Made by a program: the position numbers and the translations under genes
The notes under the pieces: model-generated
Database searches by the model: none
The model's input: only the letters and a program-made list of their open reading frames with translations
What the model was told of the DNA's origin: nothing
Source of the DNA: Dehalococcoidia bacterium
Lineage (GTDB): Bacteria > Chloroflexota > Dehalococcoidia > Bin125
Length of the DNA stretch: 64,000 bases
Direction of reading: 5' to 3'
NCBI GenBank assembly: GCA_022826965.1
Contig: JAJDTU010000009.1
Coordinates: forward strand, 186,001-250,000
Part shown: one piece after another, positions 4,436-44,827 of the stretch
How the letters are laid out: each line of letters starts with the position of its first letter
How positions within the stretch are numbered: position 1 is the first letter of the stretch

Positions 4436-4698
4436 AGGACCGCGATCAGAATCGCGATTACGCCGGTGAAGACGGCTTGCGCGGCAATCACAGCCAAGAG
4501 GAAACGCAGCATCCTGCGCTCGGCTTCCGCATGAGCTTCCGCAAACCAGCGCTGAATCTCTTCCCGTGTCGGCAGATGGCCTAAGCCCTCCTGAAGTTCC
4601 TCGTCGAGGGTTACCGCCAACTCCAACGCAGGGCTTTCATTGGCCACCTCAGCCTTGACGAATGCGTCCCGCACCCGCCGCACGTTGATGATCGCCAT
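4432..4698 (-). CDS. Small tail-anchored DUF1640/CCDC90-like protein
   Basis: 88 residues. It starts MAIINVRRVRDAFV, continues through a helical acidic middle (ELAVTLDEELQEGL, LPTREEI), and ends in a hydrophobic C-terminal segment at about residues 64-88 that looks like one membrane anchor. Its N-terminus and LDE / L-P/A-T-K/R blocks resemble two other small proteins in this window (starting at 8051 and 43647), so it looks like a member of a local family. The coiled-coil-plus-tail-anchor architecture is that of DUF1640/CCDC90-type proteins, whose bacterial function is not established. The stop is convergent with and overlaps that of the MoaD-like gene. Confidence 0.65.
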   Translation of the reverse strand: MAIINVRRVRDAFVKAEVANESPALELAVTLDEELQEGLGHLPTREEIQRWFAEAHAEAERRMLRFLLAVIAAQAVFTGVIAILIAVL

Positions 4699-8050: not shown

Positions 8051-8308
8051 ATGGCGCTCAACAGACTCCGGCTTCACAACATCCTGGTCCAAGACATGGA
8101 TGCACCTTCAGGGGCTGCGACAGAAGTCGCAGAGGTGATCGACGAAGGAATCAAGGGTTCGACCGACGGCCTTGCAACCAAGCTGGATGTCGAGCACGCA
8201 ATCACGAGTGAAGTGAATCGATTACTGCGTTGGCTCATGACCGCGGGCATCACAATTGGAGGCGCAATCATTGCGCTGCTCATTGCGATCATCGTGCGAG
8301 GAAGCTAG
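8051..8308 (+). CDS. Small tail-anchored DUF1640/CCDC90-like protein
   Basis: 85 residues, ATG start with AGGA upstream. It has the N-terminal block LRLHNILV, the acidic VAEVIDEGI and the LATKLDVE motif typical of DUF1640/CCDC90-like proteins. A single C-terminal transmembrane helix covers about residues 60-82. It is very similar in design to the protein starting at 43647 (LRFRNILV, GNLATKADL) and to that at 4432-4698. The likely topology is a cytosolic coiled coil anchored by its tail. The function is unknown. Its stop touches the stop of the convergent MaoC gene. Confidence 0.65.
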   Translation: MALNRLRLHNILVQDMDAPSGAATEVAEVIDEGIKGSTDGLATKLDVEHAITSEVNRLLRWLMTAGITIGGAIIALLIAIIVRGS

Positions 8309-37484: not shown

Positions 37485-38621
37485 CTAGACGCCGACGGGT
37501 GAGCCGAAGTTTTCGATGAGTTCTTCGGCCTGGGTGACCATCTGCTCGACGACTTCGGTGGCGGGTCGGATGGCTTTGATCAGGCCGGCTCCGTTGCCGG
37601 CGGGGCCTCCGACGAGCTCTTCGATGTGGGCTTCTCGCGCGCCTCGGAGGGCTTCTCCGACGAGCAATCCCTGGAGCGGCATCGGGAGGGTGGGCGGGGC
37701 TTCGGGGCGTTCCCAGGCCTCGGTCCAGGCGTTGTACATGTGGCGCATGGTCTTGCCGGAGTACATGCGGCCGATGCGGGTGTCCTCGTCGACGGCGGCG
37801 AGGAGCTTGTCCCACTGGACCTTGCGGGTCCATTCGTCGGTCTCGCCGCGTTCCTCGGAGTCCTGATAGGCCTCCCAGGTGCCGAGGAAGGCGGTGCCGC
37901 ACCAGATCGCCTCGGCGCCGAGGGCGAGGGCGGCGAGCAGTCCGCGCCCGTCCATGATGCCGCCGGCGGCGATGGTCTTGGTCGGAGCGATGGCGTCGGC
38001 GACCTGGGGGACGAGCGCGAGGGTGCCGATGCGTCCGGTGTGACCGCCGGCCTCGGTGCCCTGAGCGACGACGGCGTCGACCTTGGCGGCGGCGACGCGT
38101 CGGGCGTTGCGGGTGTTGCCGACGAGGCCGATGACCTTCATGCCCTGGGCGTGGGCGTCGTCGACCATCCAGCCGGGGCTGCCCAGGCCGGAGGCGAAGA
38201 CGGGCACGTGCTCGTCGAGGATGACCTCAACCTGTTTGCGGAAGTAGTCCTGAGTGAGGGGCGGTCGGTCGAGCTGCTGGGACGGCTCGGGGATTTCGAA
38301 CTCCTGCTTGAGCTGGTCGACGAAGTGGTGGTGCTCGGCGGAGATCTCGAGTTCGAGGTCCTCGCGGTTGCCGGAGTCGGCGATCGAGGAGGGCAGGAGC
38401 AGGTCGACGCCGAAGGGCTTGTCGGTGAGCGAGCGGACCTTGGCGATCATGCCGTGGAGTTCGTCGGGCGTGTAGCCGGTCGCGCCGACGACACCGAGTC
38501 CACCGGCCTCGGAGACGGCAGCGGCGAGGGTCGGTCCGGCGGCGCCGCCCATACCGGCGAGGATGACCGGGATCTCGATGCCGAGCATGTCGCAGAGTTC
38601 GGTCTTGAGTGGGGAAGCCAT
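37485..38621 (-). CDS. Nitronate monooxygenase / 2-nitropropane dioxygenase-like FMN enzyme
   Basis: 378 residues. It begins LCDMLGIEIPVILAGMGGAAGP, and the FMN-barrel motif GTEAGGHTGRIGTLALVPQ contains the active-site histidine (GGHTG). AAGGIMDGRGLLAALALGAEAI binds the FMN phosphate. These are the hallmarks of the NMO family, which oxidises nitronates or acts as an enoyl reductase-like oxidase. A ~40 residue insertion around 80-125 is longer than in class I NMO. The substrate is uncertain; related proteins are common in Chloroflexota and actinobacterial catabolic clusters. Confidence 0.88.
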   Translation of the reverse strand: MASPLKTELCDMLGIEIPVILAGMGGAAGPTLAAAVSEAGGLGVVGATGYTPDELHGMIAKVRSLTDKPFGVDLLLPSSIADSGNREDLELEISAEHHHFVDQLKQEFEIPEPSQQLDRPPLTQDYFRKQVEVILDEHVPVFASGLGSPGWMVDDAHAQGMKVIGLVGNTRNARRVAAAKVDAVVAQGTEAGGHTGRIGTLALVPQVADAIAPTKTIAAGGIMDGRGLLAALALGAEAIWCGTAFLGTWEAYQDSEERGETDEWTRKVQWDKLLAAVDEDTRIGRMYSGKTMRHMYNAWTEAWERPEAPPTLPMPLQGLLVGEALRGAREAHIEELVGGPAGNGAGLIKAIRPATEVVEQMVTQAEELIENFGSPVGV

Positions 38622-38942: not shown

Positions 38943-39209
38943 TTGGCAAAGACGTGGAAAGTTCAAGAGGCAAAAGCCCAGTTCAGTGCGCTGATTGACA
39001 CCACGCTCGCTGAAGGCCCTCAAGTCGTCACGCGGCGCGGCGTTGAAACCGCAGTCATCGTGCCATACGAGCAATGGCGCCGGCTGCAGCGTCCCAAGTA
39101 TGCCGACATCAAGGAGTGGCTACTGGCACCGGAAGCGCGGGGCGACATCCCGATTCCCCCTCGCCGGGGCGTTCGGCTGCGCGAGGGATCAGACTTTAGC
39201 GACGATTGA
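38943..39209 (+). CDS. Phd/YefM-type antitoxin
   Basis: 88 residues from a TTG with GGAGG 6 bases upstream. The N-terminal half has the Phd/YefM pattern: KVQEAKAQFSALIDTTLAEGPQVVTRRGVETAVIVPYEQWRRL. That half binds operator DNA; the C-terminal half (residues 50-88) would wrap the toxin. The stop overlaps the toxin ATG by one base (TGATG), so the pair is translationally coupled. The double ACTAGT site upstream is its likely operator. Confidence 0.9.
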   Translation: MAKTWKVQEAKAQFSALIDTTLAEGPQVVTRRGVETAVIVPYEQWRRLQRPKYADIKEWLLAPEARGDIPIPPRRGVRLREGSDFSDD

Positions 39210-39622
39210 TGTATCTCGTCGACACGAACGTGGTCTCGGAGACCCGCCGTCTGCGACCGAATCCGGCGGTGCTCGCCTGGCTGCGTTCCACACGCAGCGG
39301 CGAGTTACAGGTCAGCGCCCTCACGATTGGTGAGATTCAACAGGGGGTCGAGAAGCTGCGGGACCGCGATCCGACTCGGGCGAGCGCGATTGAGTCGTGG
39401 CTCGACGAAGCGGTGCTGCAGCACTTCGAGGTGCTGCCACTCAACGGCGCCGCCGCCCGTGAGTGGGCTCGATTGATGCGCGGGCAGTCCGAAGAACTGA
39501 CCATGGATGCAACGATCGCGGCTACTGCCGTGGTTCACGGACTGATCGTCGTGACCCGCAACGAGCGCGACTTTGATCGGCTCGCGGTGCGGACGCTCAA
39601 CCCATTTGAGTACATCGGCTAA
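39209..39622 (+). CDS. VapC/FitB-type PIN-domain toxin
   Basis: 137 residues. PIN acidic residues are Asp5 in YLVDTNVVSE, Glu42 in LTIGEIQQG, Asp100 in TMDATIAATA and Asp121 in TRNERDF, all present, so the RNase site looks intact. VapC toxins cut tRNA or rRNA. The protein is paired with a Phd-type antitoxin rather than VapB, a combination known in mixed TA modules. Because the ATG overlaps the antitoxin stop, expression depends on the upstream gene. Confidence 0.92.
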   Translation: MYLVDTNVVSETRRLRPNPAVLAWLRSTRSGELQVSALTIGEIQQGVEKLRDRDPTRASAIESWLDEAVLQHFEVLPLNGAAAREWARLMRGQSEELTMDATIAATAVVHGLIVVTRNERDFDRLAVRTLNPFEYIG

Positions 39623-39635
39623 GAGCGCCAACCGC

Positions 39636-40859
39636 TCAGGTGCCGGCGGGGCCGACGATGGTGATTTCTTCTCCGAGGGCGGCGAGGCCGAGGGAATGCT
39701 GGAGTTCGTCGGTCTTCCAGGCCATGACGATGCCTCCGGTGAGGTCCCGGTAGAGGCGTTCGAGGGGGTGGCCCTTGACGTAGGCGTGAGCGCCGGTGGT
39801 CTTGATGCTGATCTGCGCGACTTCCTCGGCCATGCGGCGCAGGTGATGGGTGGTGCGGACCTGCATACGGACGAAAGACTGGCGGTCGGTGTAGGCGCGG
39901 TCGACCTCGTCGACGGCGTGGTAGAGCATCGTGCGGGCGGAGGCGAGCCAGCTGTCCATCTCGCCGAGCGCCATCTGCGCCCAGGCCTGCTGCGAGCGGA
40001 GTTCGTTGGTGCCGCCGAGTGGACTGTTGGCCGAGGCGAGGTAGCCGCGGCGTTGCTGCAGATAGTCGATCGTCTCGTCGAACATGGCCTGGGCGTTGCC
40101 GAGCCAGATGGCGCAGATGCCGAGGCCGGGCAGGGCTCGCCGCTGCCACTGGAGCTGCGGGATCATCTGCTCGCCCATGCGCAGGAGCGCGAGCGGGACG
40201 ACGAAGCAATCGGCGCGGGGAATGCGCAGGTCTTCGATCAGCATGTCGTGGGAGGCGGTGGCGCGCAGGCCCATGCCGTTCCAGTTGCCTCGGTTGACGA
40301 TGGCGTCGTTGTCGAGCCGGGGCAGGGCGATGACCAGATCCGGCTCGGTCGGACGCTCGATCAGAGCGCCGAGCATCGCGTAGGTTGCGGCATCGGAGCC
40401 GGAGGCGAAGCCGGCCCGGCCGGAGATGACGAGGTCGGCGCCATCCTCGACGGCCATGAAGCCGGTTGTGGTGTTGTCGAGCTCGCGAGCGGGGATGCTG
40501 CCCGGCGCGCAGCACCAGGCGCCCTCGGCGCAGGCGGCGAGCATTCGGTCGCGGTGGGGGAAGGGCGGCAAGGCGGCGGCGATGCTGGTGACGAGCAGGT
40601 GCATGTTGAGCGCGACGGCGGTCGATGCGTCGCCGTAGGCGATCTCTTCGATCAGGCGAATGAAGGTGTCGCCGTCGGCCTCCAACCCACCGAAGGCTTC
40701 GGAGATCAGCAGTCCGGGAATGCCGAGTTCGGCGAGTTCGTTGAAGTTGTCGATCGGCAGCTGGCCGTCGCGATCGGCGTCGGCGGCGCGTTCGCGAAAC
40801 GGTCCGCGGGACAGTTCGCGGACCTGCTCGATCAGATGTGCTGAAGCTTCGGCATCCAT
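39636..40859 (-). CDS. Acyl-CoA dehydrogenase family flavoprotein
   Basis: 407 residues with three-domain acyl-CoA dehydrogenase architecture: alpha-helical N-terminus (DNFNELAELGIPGLLISEAFGGLEAD), central beta domain (WNGMGLRATASHDMLIEDLRIP) and C-terminal four-helix bundle (KTTGAHAYVKGHPLERLYRDLTGG). The catalytic glutamate position of classical ACADs is not clearly seen. The order of motifs also fits flavin-dependent monooxygenases such as the DszC-like group. The substrate is therefore not assigned. It is convergent with the VapC gene. Confidence 0.82.
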   Translation of the reverse strand: MDAEASAHLIEQVRELSRGPFRERAADADRDGQLPIDNFNELAELGIPGLLISEAFGGLEADGDTFIRLIEEIAYGDASTAVALNMHLLVTSIAAALPPFPHRDRMLAACAEGAWCCAPGSIPARELDNTTTGFMAVEDGADLVISGRAGFASGSDAATYAMLGALIERPTEPDLVIALPRLDNDAIVNRGNWNGMGLRATASHDMLIEDLRIPRADCFVVPLALLRMGEQMIPQLQWQRRALPGLGICAIWLGNAQAMFDETIDYLQQRRGYLASANSPLGGTNELRSQQAWAQMALGEMDSWLASARTMLYHAVDEVDRAYTDRQSFVRMQVRTTHHLRRMAEEVAQISIKTTGAHAYVKGHPLERLYRDLTGGIVMAWKTDELQHSLGLAALGEEITIVGPAGT

Positions 40860-41011
40860 GGGGGCTCCCGTGATCGACTCGACTGAGGGACACGATAGAG
40901 AGAGTGAGAACGAAGTCAGCGTATCGGGCTGCTTGCTGGCCCTGCGCGAGCGTTAGCATTTCGGCAGGAATGTGAGTCCTCTAGGAAGGGTCTCGAGAAA
41001 GGACCAGGCTG

Positions 41012-41965
41012 ATGCCGTCGATCAACACGCTGCACGGAGAAGTGGACACGTCGGAGCTAGGTCGGACGCTGATCCACGAGCACATCGGGATTAAGTCTCC
41101 CGGCATATCGGAGAACTGGCCGGAGCTGTGGGACGAGGCCGGATGCGTGGCGTCCGCGGACGAGAAGCTGAACGCGCTTCAGCAACGCGGCGTGAGCACG
41201 GTGGTCGACCTCTCGACGGCGGACCTGGGCCGCGACATGGGTTTCCTGCAGAAGGTGTCGGAGGTGACCTCGATTAATGTGGTGCTCTGCACCGGGATCT
41301 ACTGGCTGCGCTCGATGTACTGGCGCGGACGCCCGGCGGAGCTGATGACCGAGGTGTTTGTCAAGGACATCACCGAAGGGATTGCGGGAACGGGCGTCAA
41401 GGCCAACATCATCAAGCTGGCTTCGGACGAACAGGGTGGCGGGGTGGACAGATACAACGAGAAGTGCCTGCGAGCGGGCGCGCGAGCGCACCGCGCCACC
41501 GGGGTGCCGATCGCGACCCATAACGGCCCGCCCGAGCTGGGCGCGAAGCAGCAAGACGTTTTCGAGGACGAGGGCTGCGACCTTTCGCGCATCGTGATCG
41601 GTCACGTCGGGGACACGGCCGACACCGACTACTTGAAGTCGCTGATGGACCGCGGATCGTACGTCGGGTTGGACCGCTTCGGGCTGGACCAGATTCTGTC
41701 GTTCGACGATCGGGTGAACACGGTGGTCAAACTTGCTGCGGACGGCTATACCGAGCGCATGCTGCTGGCGCACGACGCGTCGTGCTGCCTGGACTGGATT
41801 CCAGACATCGACGCGATGCGTCAGGCGCAGCCGAACTGGCACTTCAACCACATCTCGGACGATGTGGTGCCGGCGCTGCTGGAGCGCGGCGTGAGCGAGG
41901 CGCAGGTCGACCAGATGCTGGTCGGCAACCCGCGCGAGCTGTTCGAGAAGCAGGGCGCTTACTAG
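41012..41965 (+). CDS. Phosphotriesterase-like lactonase/hydrolase
   Basis: 317 residues with a complete binuclear metal site for the PTE family: His22 and His24 in IHEHIG, the carboxylatable Lys135 in NIIKLAS, His170 in IATHNG, His198 in VIGHVGD and Asp255 in LLAHDAS. Family members hydrolyse lactones or organophosphates. IATHNG replaces the usual IxTHT, so the substrate pocket may differ. AAAGGA before the ATG is a good ribosome site. The stop is immediately followed by the GTG of the next gene, so the two are co-translated. Confidence 0.92.
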   Translation: MPSINTLHGEVDTSELGRTLIHEHIGIKSPGISENWPELWDEAGCVASADEKLNALQQRGVSTVVDLSTADLGRDMGFLQKVSEVTSINVVLCTGIYWLRSMYWRGRPAELMTEVFVKDITEGIAGTGVKANIIKLASDEQGGGVDRYNEKCLRAGARAHRATGVPIATHNGPPELGAKQQDVFEDEGCDLSRIVIGHVGDTADTDYLKSLMDRGSYVGLDRFGLDQILSFDDRVNTVVKLAADGYTERMLLAHDASCCLDWIPDIDAMRQAQPNWHFNHISDDVVPALLERGVSEAQVDQMLVGNPRELFEKQGAY

Positions 41966-43639
41966 GTGGCCCAATCAGCTGCGACATCGGCCCTCGAGCC
42001 GGCCGATCTGTTATCGGCTGCGCGTGCCGGCTTCGCCGGAGCGCCGCTTGAAGACTCCAGCGGCGACATCGCAGCGCGCGCCCGGCTCTGGCGCGCCGGT
42101 CTCGTGGTCGCCGAAGCGGAAGCATCGGCGTCGGATGGTTTGGCTGCTGCTCAGGCTGCCGGCTCGGCGCTGCAGGCGGCGCTCGGCGAACAGAGCGATC
42201 AGCCGGGAGACGTGCTGGGCATCGAAGTTGAAGCACAACGTGAGCCGCGGAGTCCTGAAGGTCTGATCGGCCTGATCCAGACGCCGCTGCCGGGCCGACA
42301 CGGGCTGATCCTGCGAGACGGCGAATCGGTCGCTCGCGGCTGGCCGTTCGATGCGCTGCGGACCGACGGTCGGACAGCGGCCTGGGTGAAACAGCTGAAT
42401 CGGGAGGTGCGGCGGCCGGGGGCGCGGCTGGCGTCGAGCACGTCGGTCGAAGTGTTCACGACGGTCGAAGCCCTGGGCACGGTGGGGCCGACGGACGGCG
42501 AGCGGATTTCACCACGGGCCGGAGGGTTTCGGCTCGTGGATCAGGCGGAGGTGCTGCCCGATCGAGTGGCGGGATCGGCGCTGCAGGCGGCGGCCTGGCT
42601 GTTGCGGCATCAACGTGGGGACGGATCGTTCGCGTACGAGTACGCGCCAGCGAGCGGCGACAAGGCAGGCGGCAAGGCGGGCGGCTGGACGCCGTTCGAC
42701 CAGTTGGTTCGCCAGTGCGGCTGCGCCTGGGCGATCGCGATGGTGGCGCGCATTTCTCGGGATCGCAAGATCGGCGAGGCGGCGGCGAGGGCGATCAGCG
42801 GGGTCCTCGAGCGTCACCTGCGGCGAGACGGACCGGGTCGGCTGTTCTACCTGGAGGACATGTACGGAGAAGCGAAGCTGGGCGCTCCGCCGCTGCTGCT
42901 GCTGGCGATCTGCGAACTTGGTTCGGCGCTGAGGATTCCGCGCGAGACGGTCGACCAGCTGACAGCCTCATTGCTCGCGGTGCAGTCGCGAGACGGCCGC
43001 CTGGGTACCAAGGCGCGCGGGATGGAGCTTGAGGGGTCGGAGACGTATTACGCCGGCCAGATCGTACTGGCGCTGGCGAGGTTGTTTGCGATCCGCAAGC
43101 GACCGCGTCTGCGCACGGCCGTGGAACGGTCGCTCAAGCACTACCGGGGTCGTTGGGATGACGAGGACGAGCGAGATTTGTCGTTTACGACGTGGATGAT
43201 CCAGGCCTGCGACCAGTGGCACGCGAATGTTGGAGACGACTTGTCGCGCGACTACGCCTACGAGATGGCGGACTGGGCGCTGGAGGAACAGCACGGCGAG
43301 GACAGCGGGAATCCGCTCTGGGTCGGCGCGTTCCAGAACACGCCGGGGATCGGGACGGCGGCGTACAGCGAGGGGATTGCGAGTGCGCTCTCGATCGCGC
43401 AGCGGACAGGAGACCAGGAGCGGGCGGAGCGGTATCGGTCCGCGTTGCTATCGAGCGTGCGGTTCCTGCTTTCGCTGTCGCTGGATGGTCCCGAGTATGC
43501 GCTGGTCGGGGGTAGCGAGCATGTGGGAGCGGTGCGGTCGGCGCTGCATCGATCGGGGTTGCGCTGCGACAATGCGCAGCACTACGTGATGTCGATGCTG
43601 CGGGCTCGGGCCTTATGCTGGGATGGGAACGGGGAGTAA
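41966..43639 (+). CDS. Alpha/alpha-toroid protein with unassigned N-terminal domain
   Basis: 557 residues from GTG directly after the phosphotriesterase stop. Residues 1-190 are alanine-rich and mixed; they contain HGLILRDGESVARGWPF and STSVEVFTTVEAL and resemble no family I can name. From ~205 there is a repeated helix-pair pattern typical of (alpha/alpha)6 toroids, with GDGSFAYEYAP, NPLWVGAFQNTPGIGTAAYSEG and IASALSIA. This is the fold of glycosidases, epimerases and terpene cyclases. The residues needed to assign a reaction are not identified. The partner lactonase suggests that the pair processes one compound. Confidence 0.65.
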   Translation: MAQSAATSALEPADLLSAARAGFAGAPLEDSSGDIAARARLWRAGLVVAEAEASASDGLAAAQAAGSALQAALGEQSDQPGDVLGIEVEAQREPRSPEGLIGLIQTPLPGRHGLILRDGESVARGWPFDALRTDGRTAAWVKQLNREVRRPGARLASSTSVEVFTTVEALGTVGPTDGERISPRAGGFRLVDQAEVLPDRVAGSALQAAAWLLRHQRGDGSFAYEYAPASGDKAGGKAGGWTPFDQLVRQCGCAWAIAMVARISRDRKIGEAAARAISGVLERHLRRDGPGRLFYLEDMYGEAKLGAPPLLLLAICELGSALRIPRETVDQLTASLLAVQSRDGRLGTKARGMELEGSETYYAGQIVLALARLFAIRKRPRLRTAVERSLKHYRGRWDDEDERDLSFTTWMIQACDQWHANVGDDLSRDYAYEMADWALEEQHGEDSGNPLWVGAFQNTPGIGTAAYSEGIASALSIAQRTGDQERAERYRSALLSSVRFLLSLSLDGPEYALVGGSEHVGAVRSALHRSGLRCDNAQHYVMSMLRARALCWDGNGE

Positions 43640-43646
43640 TGGCCTG

Positions 43647-43925
43647 ATGGCGATCATCGACACCCTCAGGTTCCGCAACATTCTGGTCGACGGCGAGATC
43701 GCTGAAGAGGAGCCGGCCCGAGAGTTCGTCGGCGCGCTTGATGAGTCTCTCGAAGAGATCACGGGCAACCTAGCAACGAAGGCCGACCTGACAGCATTCA
43801 AGGCGGAGATTCTGGCTGCTATCGCTCAAAGCGATGCTGCCAACGCTCGCGGCCGATTGGCGCTGTTTGCCGCCATCACTGCGGTCCTCGGCGTTGCAGT
43901 GGGGCTGATTCTCGGTCTCAACTGA
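43647..43925 (+). CDS. Small tail-anchored DUF1640/CCDC90-like protein
   Basis: 92 residues from ATG 43647, chosen over 43623 because GGGGAG lies 10 bases upstream and the sequence then begins MAII like the protein at 4432-4698. It contains LRFRNILV, REFVGALDESL and the DUF1640-type GNLATKADLTAFKAE, and ends in a membrane helix at about 70-90. It follows the toroid gene by 7 bases and so belongs to that transcript. The function is unknown. Confidence 0.68.
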   Translation: MAIIDTLRFRNILVDGEIAEEEPAREFVGALDESLEEITGNLATKADLTAFKAEILAAIAQSDAANARGRLALFAAITAVLGVAVGLILGLN

Positions 43926-43927
43926 CC

Positions 43928-44827
43928 TCAGCCCTTGAGGTCGGGCCAGACTTCTCGCCAGGCGGTTTCGATGGTTTGTAGGTATTGGTCGACGGGGATG
44001 GCGAGTTCCCGGTCGTAGTTGGGCATTCCGATGCCGAGGCGGGTGATGCCCATGTCGCGGGCGGCGCTGAGCAGGCGCTGGGTGTTGGCCATGTCGGCGT
44101 CGAGCGGCGGCAGCCACTGGATAGGGAAGTCGTCGGGGTCGCGGTCGTTGGCCTCGAGCTGCGCGCGCAGGCGGCCGATCAGCTCGGCTAGTTGATCCAC
44201 GGTGGACTGAACGGGCGCGATCCAGCCGTCGCCCAGGCGGGCGGTACGCTCGATCGCGGCCTGAGCGAAGCCGCCGAAGAGGATCGGCGGACCGCCGGGC
44301 GTGACCGGCTTGGGCATGACCGACATCTGGTCGATGTTGACGTAGCGGCCGCTGAAGGTGATGGGTTCCTCGGTCCAACATGCTCGGAGGACGCGGATGT
44401 ACTCCTCCATGCGGCTCGGGCGCTGGCGGAAGTTGGCGGTGAGGGCGTCGAACTCCTGCCATTGCCAGCCGATGCCGATGCCGAGGCGCATGCGTCCGCG
44501 GGAGAGGATGTCGATCTCGGCGGCCTGCTTGGCGACGAGGACGGGTTCGCGCTGGGGCAGGACGAGGACGTTGGTCTGCAGGGCGACGCGGTTGGTGATG
44601 CCGGCGAGCCAGGCGAGGGTAGTCAGAACCTCGTGCTGGTGGACATCGTCGGTGTAGGGGCCGGTCTGGGGGCGGTCGTCGCGAGCGTAGGCGTAGATGA
44701 CGTGGTCTGCCATGGAGATGAAGTCGCAGCCGATCGCCTCGACGCCCTGAGCCCAGTCGCGCAGTTCCGAGACATCCCAGTGCCAGTGCCAGGCGGGAAT
44801 CTGACAGCCGAATTCGAACTGTGCCAT
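43928..44827 (-). CDS. LLM-class F420-dependent oxidoreductase
   Basis: 299 residues. TIM-barrel of the luciferase-like monooxygenase family: FGCQIPAWHWHWDV at the start, DHVIYAYARDDR near 41, NVLVLPQREPVLVAKQAAEIDILSRGRMRLGIGIGW and ILFGGFAQAAIERTARLGDGWIAP. This loop-and-barrel order matches F420-dependent members rather than FMN luciferases. Such enzymes are abundant in Chloroflexota and actinobacteria. The substrate cannot be predicted. It is convergent with the small anchored-protein gene. Confidence 0.9.
   Translation of the reverse strand: MAQFEFGCQIPAWHWHWDVSELRDWAQGVEAIGCDFISMADHVIYAYARDDRPQTGPYTDDVHQHEVLTTLAWLAGITNRVALQTNVLVLPQREPVLVAKQAAEIDILSRGRMRLGIGIGWQWQEFDALTANFRQRPSRMEEYIRVLRACWTEEPITFSGRYVNIDQMSVMPKPVTPGGPPILFGGFAQAAIERTARLGDGWIAPVQSTVDQLAELIGRLRAQLEANDRDPDDFPIQWLPPLDADMANTQRLLSAARDMGITRLGIGMPNYDRELAIPVDQYLQTIETAWREVWPDLKG

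Follow-up and report, generated by a model that had tools for sequence, protein, structure and literature searches.

A lactonase gene abutted by the gene for a predicted AMMECR1-fold/(alpha/alpha)6-barrel protein in a single genus of Dehalococcoidia-type Chloroflexota

What is the role of a protein whose gene begins on the base after the stop codon of a lactonase gene, and do the two proteins share a pathway with the small anchored protein encoded just behind them? This question is raised by a locus in a 64,000-nucleotide stretch of DNA (the window) from a Dehalococcoidia bacterium (GenBank assembly GCA_022826965.1, contig JAJDTU010000009.1, positions 186001–250000), the genome of which comprises 3.0 Mb in 14 contigs and is 97% complete. 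On the forward strand, the gene of a phosphotriesterase-like lactonase (PLL; 317 aa, 41012–41965) is followed by that of a 557-aa toroid protein (41966–43639) and that of a small anchored protein (92 aa, 43647–43925). The GTG start of the toroid gene abuts the lactonase TAG with 0 bases between, and the small-protein gene starts 7 bases past the TAA of the toroid gene. These coordinates, frames and spacings agree throughout with a first-pass annotation, which was made from the sequence alone and regarded all three genes as a tightly coupled, possibly membrane-linked set. A promoter and terminator scan of 40800–44000 found none, and many shuffles likewise gave none. In this study, we found that the first two genes form a tightly coupled pair confined to a single genus of Dehalococcoidia-type Chloroflexota, and that the second very probably encodes a two-domain protein with no evident membrane segment, in which a domain of predicted AMMECR1 fold precedes a predicted (alpha/alpha)6 barrel. 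This fusion protein is the interesting part of the locus; the lactonase appears ordinary.

Conservation of the pair and the variable downstream slot

In a single-sequence search (E ≤ 0.001), the toroid protein was detected in all 15 genomes of the genus, including the present one, in four of the five other genomes of the family, and in none of 80 other genomes of the class. The toroid start follows the lactonase stop with zero bases between them in all 15 genus genomes, which comprise 14 intact loci (12 with GTG and two with ATG starts) and one genome (G007) in which the toroid gene, starting with GTG, is split over two contigs. Such complete retention of zero-base spacing is more than chance and points to translational coupling of the two genes. 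The ratio of nonsynonymous to synonymous substitution rates (dN/dS), calculated between the window and nine of the remaining 13 intact loci in the genus, was 0.02–0.09 for PLL and 0.07–0.28 for the N-terminal domain of the toroid protein. For the toroid half, it was 0.08–0.21 in eight of the nine comparisons, the ninth (locus L024) being omitted because dS was saturated. The lactonase and both domains of the toroid protein are shown by these ratios to be under purifying selection.

The third gene behaves differently. Its product is a small protein, apparently a tail-anchored coiled-coil protein with a hydrophobic C-terminus (maximum 19-residue hydropathy of 2.68, at residue 71). A homologue follows the toroid gene in five of the 15 genus genomes (tblastn); three others carry a similar small open reading frame (ORF), as judged by eye, and one carries a 61-residue ORF. 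In three more (G006, G007 and G012), a large ORF, nuclease-like by reading of its sequence, starts no more than 6 bases past the toroid stop (L032:6193, L033:1466 and L029:2671, respectively). The remaining three have neither the small protein nor the nuclease-like ORF, and one of them (G005) has a 2.3 kb insertion between the toroid gene and a downstream monooxygenase gene (L024:11657-13919). A search of the present genome with the small protein returned, besides itself, two further matches (E 7.7e-8 and 3.2e-6) and one weak match (0.038).

The close spacing of all three genes in the window would suit the idea that they make up a single pathway for a cyclic ester, linked to the membrane, as the first-pass annotation had proposed. 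This idea fails because the slot after the toroid gene varies: the third-gene homologue is present in five of 15 genomes, a similar or short ORF in four, and another gene or none in six, while further copies of the small protein occur elsewhere in the genome. We rejected the three-gene unit on these grounds and consider a membrane-linked trio barely credible. Thus, the proposed tight coupling holds for the first two genes within the genus and not for the third, and the small anchored protein is probably not part of the lactonase–toroid unit. Two side observations concern this small family: members lie in the window at 4444–4698 (E 7.7e-8) and, weakly, at 8057–8218 (0.038), and the homologue in locus L030 weakly resembles CCDC90-like proteins, below the cut-off.

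Predicted domains of the toroid protein

A search of Pfam, NCBIfam and PDB sequences with the toroid protein gave nothing over threshold. The initial statement that its N-terminal ~190 residues match no known family therefore stands for Pfam and NCBIfam; it does not stand for the predicted fold. An AlphaFold2 (AF2) model of residues 1–191 alone (41966–42538, forward strand), built from 18 sequences, had a predicted local distance difference test score (pLDDT) of 82.3 and a predicted template modelling score of 0.80. Among 350,542 chains searched with Foldseek, only the AMMECR1 structures 1vaj (E 9.2e-7), 1zq7 (2.0e-6) and 1wsc (3.4e-5) reached E ≤ 0.001, and the next match had an E of 0.18. 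In VIA, the three AMMECR1 structures gave Z scores of 13.9, 11.7 and 10.5, and the next was 5.6. A profile built on 15 of the AMMECR1 proteins in the class matched only the same three entries among PDB sequences (E ≤ 0.001). AMMECR1 had been suspected for this part of the protein from its sequence, ahead of any structure search.

By prediction, residues 1–191 have the AMMECR1 fold. We do not regard them as a member of the AMMECR1 family because no sequence similarity was seen: the toroid protein has no PF01871 match, and RGCIG is absent from all 19 toroid proteins, as opposed to its presence in all 15 AMMECR1 proteins from the class. The longer LRGCIG is named as an AMMECR1 motif in PMC5502304. 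Profile–profile comparison did not detect the relationship: hhalign of the N-terminal domain with the 15-sequence AMMECR1 alignment gave a probability of 0.3%, or 0.14% once distant relatives were added, which is no better than the 0.2% of a control pair, PLL and AMMECR1. We accordingly rejected any sequence proof of homology and did not count a collinear second alignment.

The full-length model (pLDDT 77.1, 19 sequences) shows the toroid from about residue 192, and the C-terminal half (residues 192–557; 42539–43636, forward strand) has, on this predicted model, the features of an (alpha/alpha)6 barrel. AprG was the top Foldseek match of the whole-protein model. The top 50 VIA entries shown had Z scores of 24.0–26.9 over 268–327 aligned residues at 7–16% identity, and the top entries include cellobiose 2-epimerases, GH76 proteins, terpene cyclases, AprG and others. 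No Pfam family exceeded its cut-off for the toroid half in the 13 members scanned, and the best profile match of the toroid to PDB sequences was a single 138-position stretch, to a cyclase (E 5.6e-4). Weak matches to GH88 for a relative from Thioclava (E 7.9e-4, below the cut-off) and to squalene cyclase and GH127 for others were set aside. Across 13 divergent toroid sequences, R249, E469, R533, D535, H539, Y224, W410 and some glycines are invariant, and the invariant polar set, as read from the alignment, may mark the pocket of the barrel. None of the 19 toroid proteins has a strongly hydrophobic segment (maximum 19-residue hydropathy of 0.94–1.42). A partial literature search met no description of a fusion of an AMMECR1 fold with a toroid, although we do not claim that such a fusion is unpublished.

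The lactonase and a possible lactone pathway

The product of the first gene matched PF02126 with 271.9 bits (cut-off 22.4) over positions 1–298 of the 298-position profile. By sequence match, the residues of the binuclear site (four His, a Lys of the carboxylated type and an Asp) are all in place, and the six ligands H22, H24, K135, H170, H198 and D255 are all present in 16 of 16 aligned PLL orthologues, which bears out the early description of a lactonase with every metal ligand. Its closest solved structure is 4if2, named 'Phosphotriesterase homology protein' (PHP), with Sulfolobus-type entries next; these rank above entries named phosphotriesterase of the PTE type. We take 4if2 to be Mycobacterium PHP, 4g2d to be SisLac and 2vc5 to be SsoPox. 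With the neighbouring entries that we presume to be lactonases counted as such, PLL appears closer to lactonases than to bacterial phosphotriesterases, and gene 1 would be an ordinary metal-dependent phosphotriesterase-like lactonase. The present genome has one PF02126 match; at least one, and in some genomes several, were found in 38 of 61 genomes searched.

The annotation had also singled out IATHNG in place of the usual THT. The motif is real, but its special status is not: among 36 aligned PLL sequences (the 16 orthologues plus 20 more from the family and class), the invariant beta-6 His can be followed by N, T, A, H or S, and a distant subfamily has P there. We therefore rejected it as a special feature because it lies within the normal variation of these sequences.

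The presumed SisLac entry is among the structures nearest to PLL, which would suit a quorum-quenching lactonase encoded beside an unrelated toroid protein. SisLac is described as a lactonase with quorum-quenching ability in PMC3468530, and the six ligands of PLL correspond to those given there. However, none of the nine neighbours scanned was recognised as a signalling gene, no genome-wide search for such genes having been made, and we consider this explanation very unlikely.

Convergent with the three genes lies a luciferase-like (LLM/FMNO) flavin monooxygenase gene (43928–44827, reverse strand; PF00296, 164.4 bits), and divergent from the lactonase lies an acyl-CoA dehydrogenase-like flavoprotein gene (39636–40859, reverse strand; best model PF08028), beyond which is a nitronate monooxygenase-like gene, a conserved neighbour (37485–38621, reverse strand; PF03060, 201.4 bits). 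The genome contains 69 PF00296 matches, some being halves of one frame, and one of them adjoins the toroid locus. A large number of PF00296 luciferase-like monooxygenases is a trait described for part of SAR202 (PMC5395668, PMC10444878). In SAR202, flavin monooxygenases are proposed to insert oxygen into rings, producing lactones that then open either on their own or through the action of a lactonase or esterase (PMC5395668). The position of our lactonase near monooxygenase, acyl-CoA dehydrogenase-like and nitronate monooxygenase-like genes fits this scheme.

We therefore propose, tentatively, that the two genes form a unit in which the lactonase opens lactones made by flavin monooxygenases and the toroid protein acts as its partner. 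The many luciferase-like flavin monooxygenases, which belong broadly to the type invoked for SAR202, would make lactones from rings, and the lactonase would open them. The toroid protein, for which the gene coupling suggests a partner role in the same pathway, may act on the same lactone or on the resulting carbohydrate-like hydroxy-acid. The C-terminal barrel is presumably catalytic and would do the chemistry, and the AMMECR1-fold domain, which is probably a binding domain because the LRGCIG motif is missing, would hold or gate the substrate. As a whole, we rate this statement as distinctly short of an even chance; the far higher confidence expressed above concerns the domain make-up alone.

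Several observations weigh against this proposal. The pairing, conserved throughout the genus, is not kept in the sister genus: in G017, a lactonase orthologue with 78% identity lies 3 kb from the toroid gene on the other strand, and in G016, G018 and G019, no lactonase lies beside the toroid gene, the PLLs elsewhere in these genomes showing 36–42% identity or less. Given that the pairing is broken in these four genomes, the toroid protein does not need the lactonase alongside. Lack of a conserved neighbourhood in relatives, which the annotation had named as grounds for refutation, is thus seen beyond the genus and not inside it. Conversely, G015, a sister genome that is 79% complete, has no toroid match and yet encodes a THNGPP-type PLL with 52% identity. 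The luciferase-like monooxygenase gene follows the toroid gene in 11 of the 15 genus genomes and is not found within 3.0, 1.6 and 1.3 kb downstream in G006, G007 and G012, respectively; in the fourth lacking genome (G014), the contig part ends 0.6 kb past the toroid gene, and the contigs of all four end 0.6–3.0 kb past it. On the other side, the acyl-CoA dehydrogenase-like gene adjoins the lactonase in 12 of the 14 genus loci whose sequence extends to this point; G006 and G007 have the nitronate monooxygenase-like gene there instead.

An alternative view is that the operon is an accident, in which a toroid protein with a role of its own took its place behind a lactonase a single time, in an ancestor common to the genus. 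The protein occurs in all 15 genus genomes and four of five other family genomes, and its neighbours outside the genus are varied: pth- and mfd-like genes in G017, an alcohol dehydrogenase-like gene in G016 and acyl-CoA dehydrogenase-like genes in G018 and G019, of which the pth, mfd and alcohol dehydrogenase neighbours were named by reading of their sequences. The absence of the downstream monooxygenase in G006, G007 and G012 makes the lactone proposal slightly weaker and the accident slightly stronger. Against the accident stands the zero spacing in 15 of 15 genomes, despite divergence of the toroid protein in the genus down to about 75% identity. We regard the accident as a serious contender, likewise short of an even chance and only marginally more probable than the lactone proposal.

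AMMECR1 proteins are conserved all the way from archaea to humans and have, to our knowledge, no established biochemical function. An AMMECR1 point mutation has been tied to a human developmental disorder (PMC5502304). A divergent AMMECR1 fold on an enzyme-like barrel, directly behind a lactonase in one lineage, would provide a concrete handle on the ligands of such domains. The locus also sets a lactonase among dozens of flavin monooxygenases in one genome, a setting for which a lactone step has been proposed (PMC5395668).

Three side observations concern the surroundings. A second, tandem luciferase-like monooxygenase, 68–70% identical to that of the window, is present in four genus genomes (loci L026, L027, L028 and L031). 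A PIN-domain gene at 39206–39622 shows 49–83% identity across the genus loci, as against 84–99% for both flanking genes, and looks as if it had been replaced or were fast-evolving. GC skew in the window lies near zero up to ~24 kb and takes values of about +0.15 to +0.28 thereafter.

Distant relatives and likeness to known systems

A profile search of 400 genomes of the phylum gave nine with any toroid match, four of them in the genus. Full-length relatives were found in G159 and G365, and three distant toroid-only relatives with an N-terminal hydrophobic stretch were found in the class (G051, G077 and G093); each of their genes (L060:8403-9578, L061:8239-9435 and L062:8084-9262) lies near a YebC-like gene, the stretch and this gene both being judged by reading. 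G365 alone, out of 41 genomes from its class, gave a full-length match, which lies on a contig of 4.9 kb; G252, of the same class, has a 72-residue match (E 4.7e-4). Contamination or transfer is therefore possible for the G365 match, and its N-terminus was trimmed in the comparison, the start being uncertain. Three of 29 genomes in the class of G159 matched, two of them weakly. Plasmid searches gave one record with the G159 protein and two with the Thioclava protein, the plasmid relatives being those of Thioclava electrotropha (pTElox9) and Rhizobium lusitanum (p_2). In viral contigs, 13 stretches fitted the search pattern, and none of them was a relative. The proteins of the window and of Thioclava are 26% identical over 381 columns in the toroid part only, and the Rhizobium and Thioclava relatives are 30% identical. 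Length and pattern suggest that the N-terminal domains of the distant relatives share the AMMECR1 fold.

The neighbourhood of the Rhizobium gene (L104:5064-13111) resembles a cluster for a ribosomally synthesized and post-translationally modified peptide (RiPP): the toroid gene lies between a radical SAM gene and genes for HlyD and an ABC exporter with a C39 peptidase, and the cluster also holds, upstream, a 73-aa ORF with a GG-type leader and Asp-Gly repeats and encodes a 253-aa protein. In Thioclava (L063:5364-8720), the relative is divergent from a MurF-like ligase gene, near type I secretion genes. These loci would suit a peptide-modifying or -processing enzyme of RiPP-like systems, with the Chloroflexota form acting on a peptide or peptidyl conjugate. 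However, no exporter or radical SAM protein was found among the nine proteins scanned around the toroid gene in the window, only two alphaproteobacterial loci were examined, and the GG-leader pattern, written with the Rhizobium peptide in view, had no hit in the Thioclava and G159 loci. A GG-leader hit at ~37589 in the window lies in a frame rich in Arg that overlaps the nitronate monooxygenase gene and was taken as chance. We judge this explanation improbable. A broader and still doubtful idea, to which we give slightly more room, is that AMMECR1-fold/toroid fusions are an unnamed enzyme family of Chloroflexota and Alphaproteobacteria, of which the alphaproteobacterial members mature exported peptides, the branch in Chloroflexota having been co-opted next to a lactonase. 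In that case, the AMMECR1-fold domain would gain a testable biochemical role.

Returning to the lactonase–toroid unit, we compared it with known systems. Memo-Ammecr1 (AmmeMemoRadiSam) systems are mentioned in PMC7159879. An AMMECR1 fold and the radical SAM neighbour of the Rhizobium relative recall these systems. Canonical AMMECR1 and Memo, which exceeded the cut-off in 35 of the 100 and 16 of the 61 genomes searched for them, respectively, did so in none of the 15 genus genomes, three of which have Memo matches below the cut-off; the toroid protein is therefore not part of a standard Memo-Ammecr1 system. The lactonase is like 4if2, 4g2d and 2vc5, its best PDB matches, in its full-length PF02126 match and six metal ligands. 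It differs from known PLLs in having THNGPP, where one residue is deleted following the beta-6 metal His, a feature shared by the G015 paralog (52% identical). The toroid half has the same barrel fold as AGE/cellobiose 2-epimerases (CE), GH76 proteins, AprG and terpene cyclases (Z 24–27), while it is unlike these families in sequence, with 7–16% identity and no family-level match. Likewise, the N-terminal domain differs from the AMMECR1 family (PF01871) in lacking PF01871 and profile–profile similarity, in lacking RGCIG and in being fused to a toroid, whereas it has a predicted fold in common with 1vaj, 1zq7 and 1wsc.

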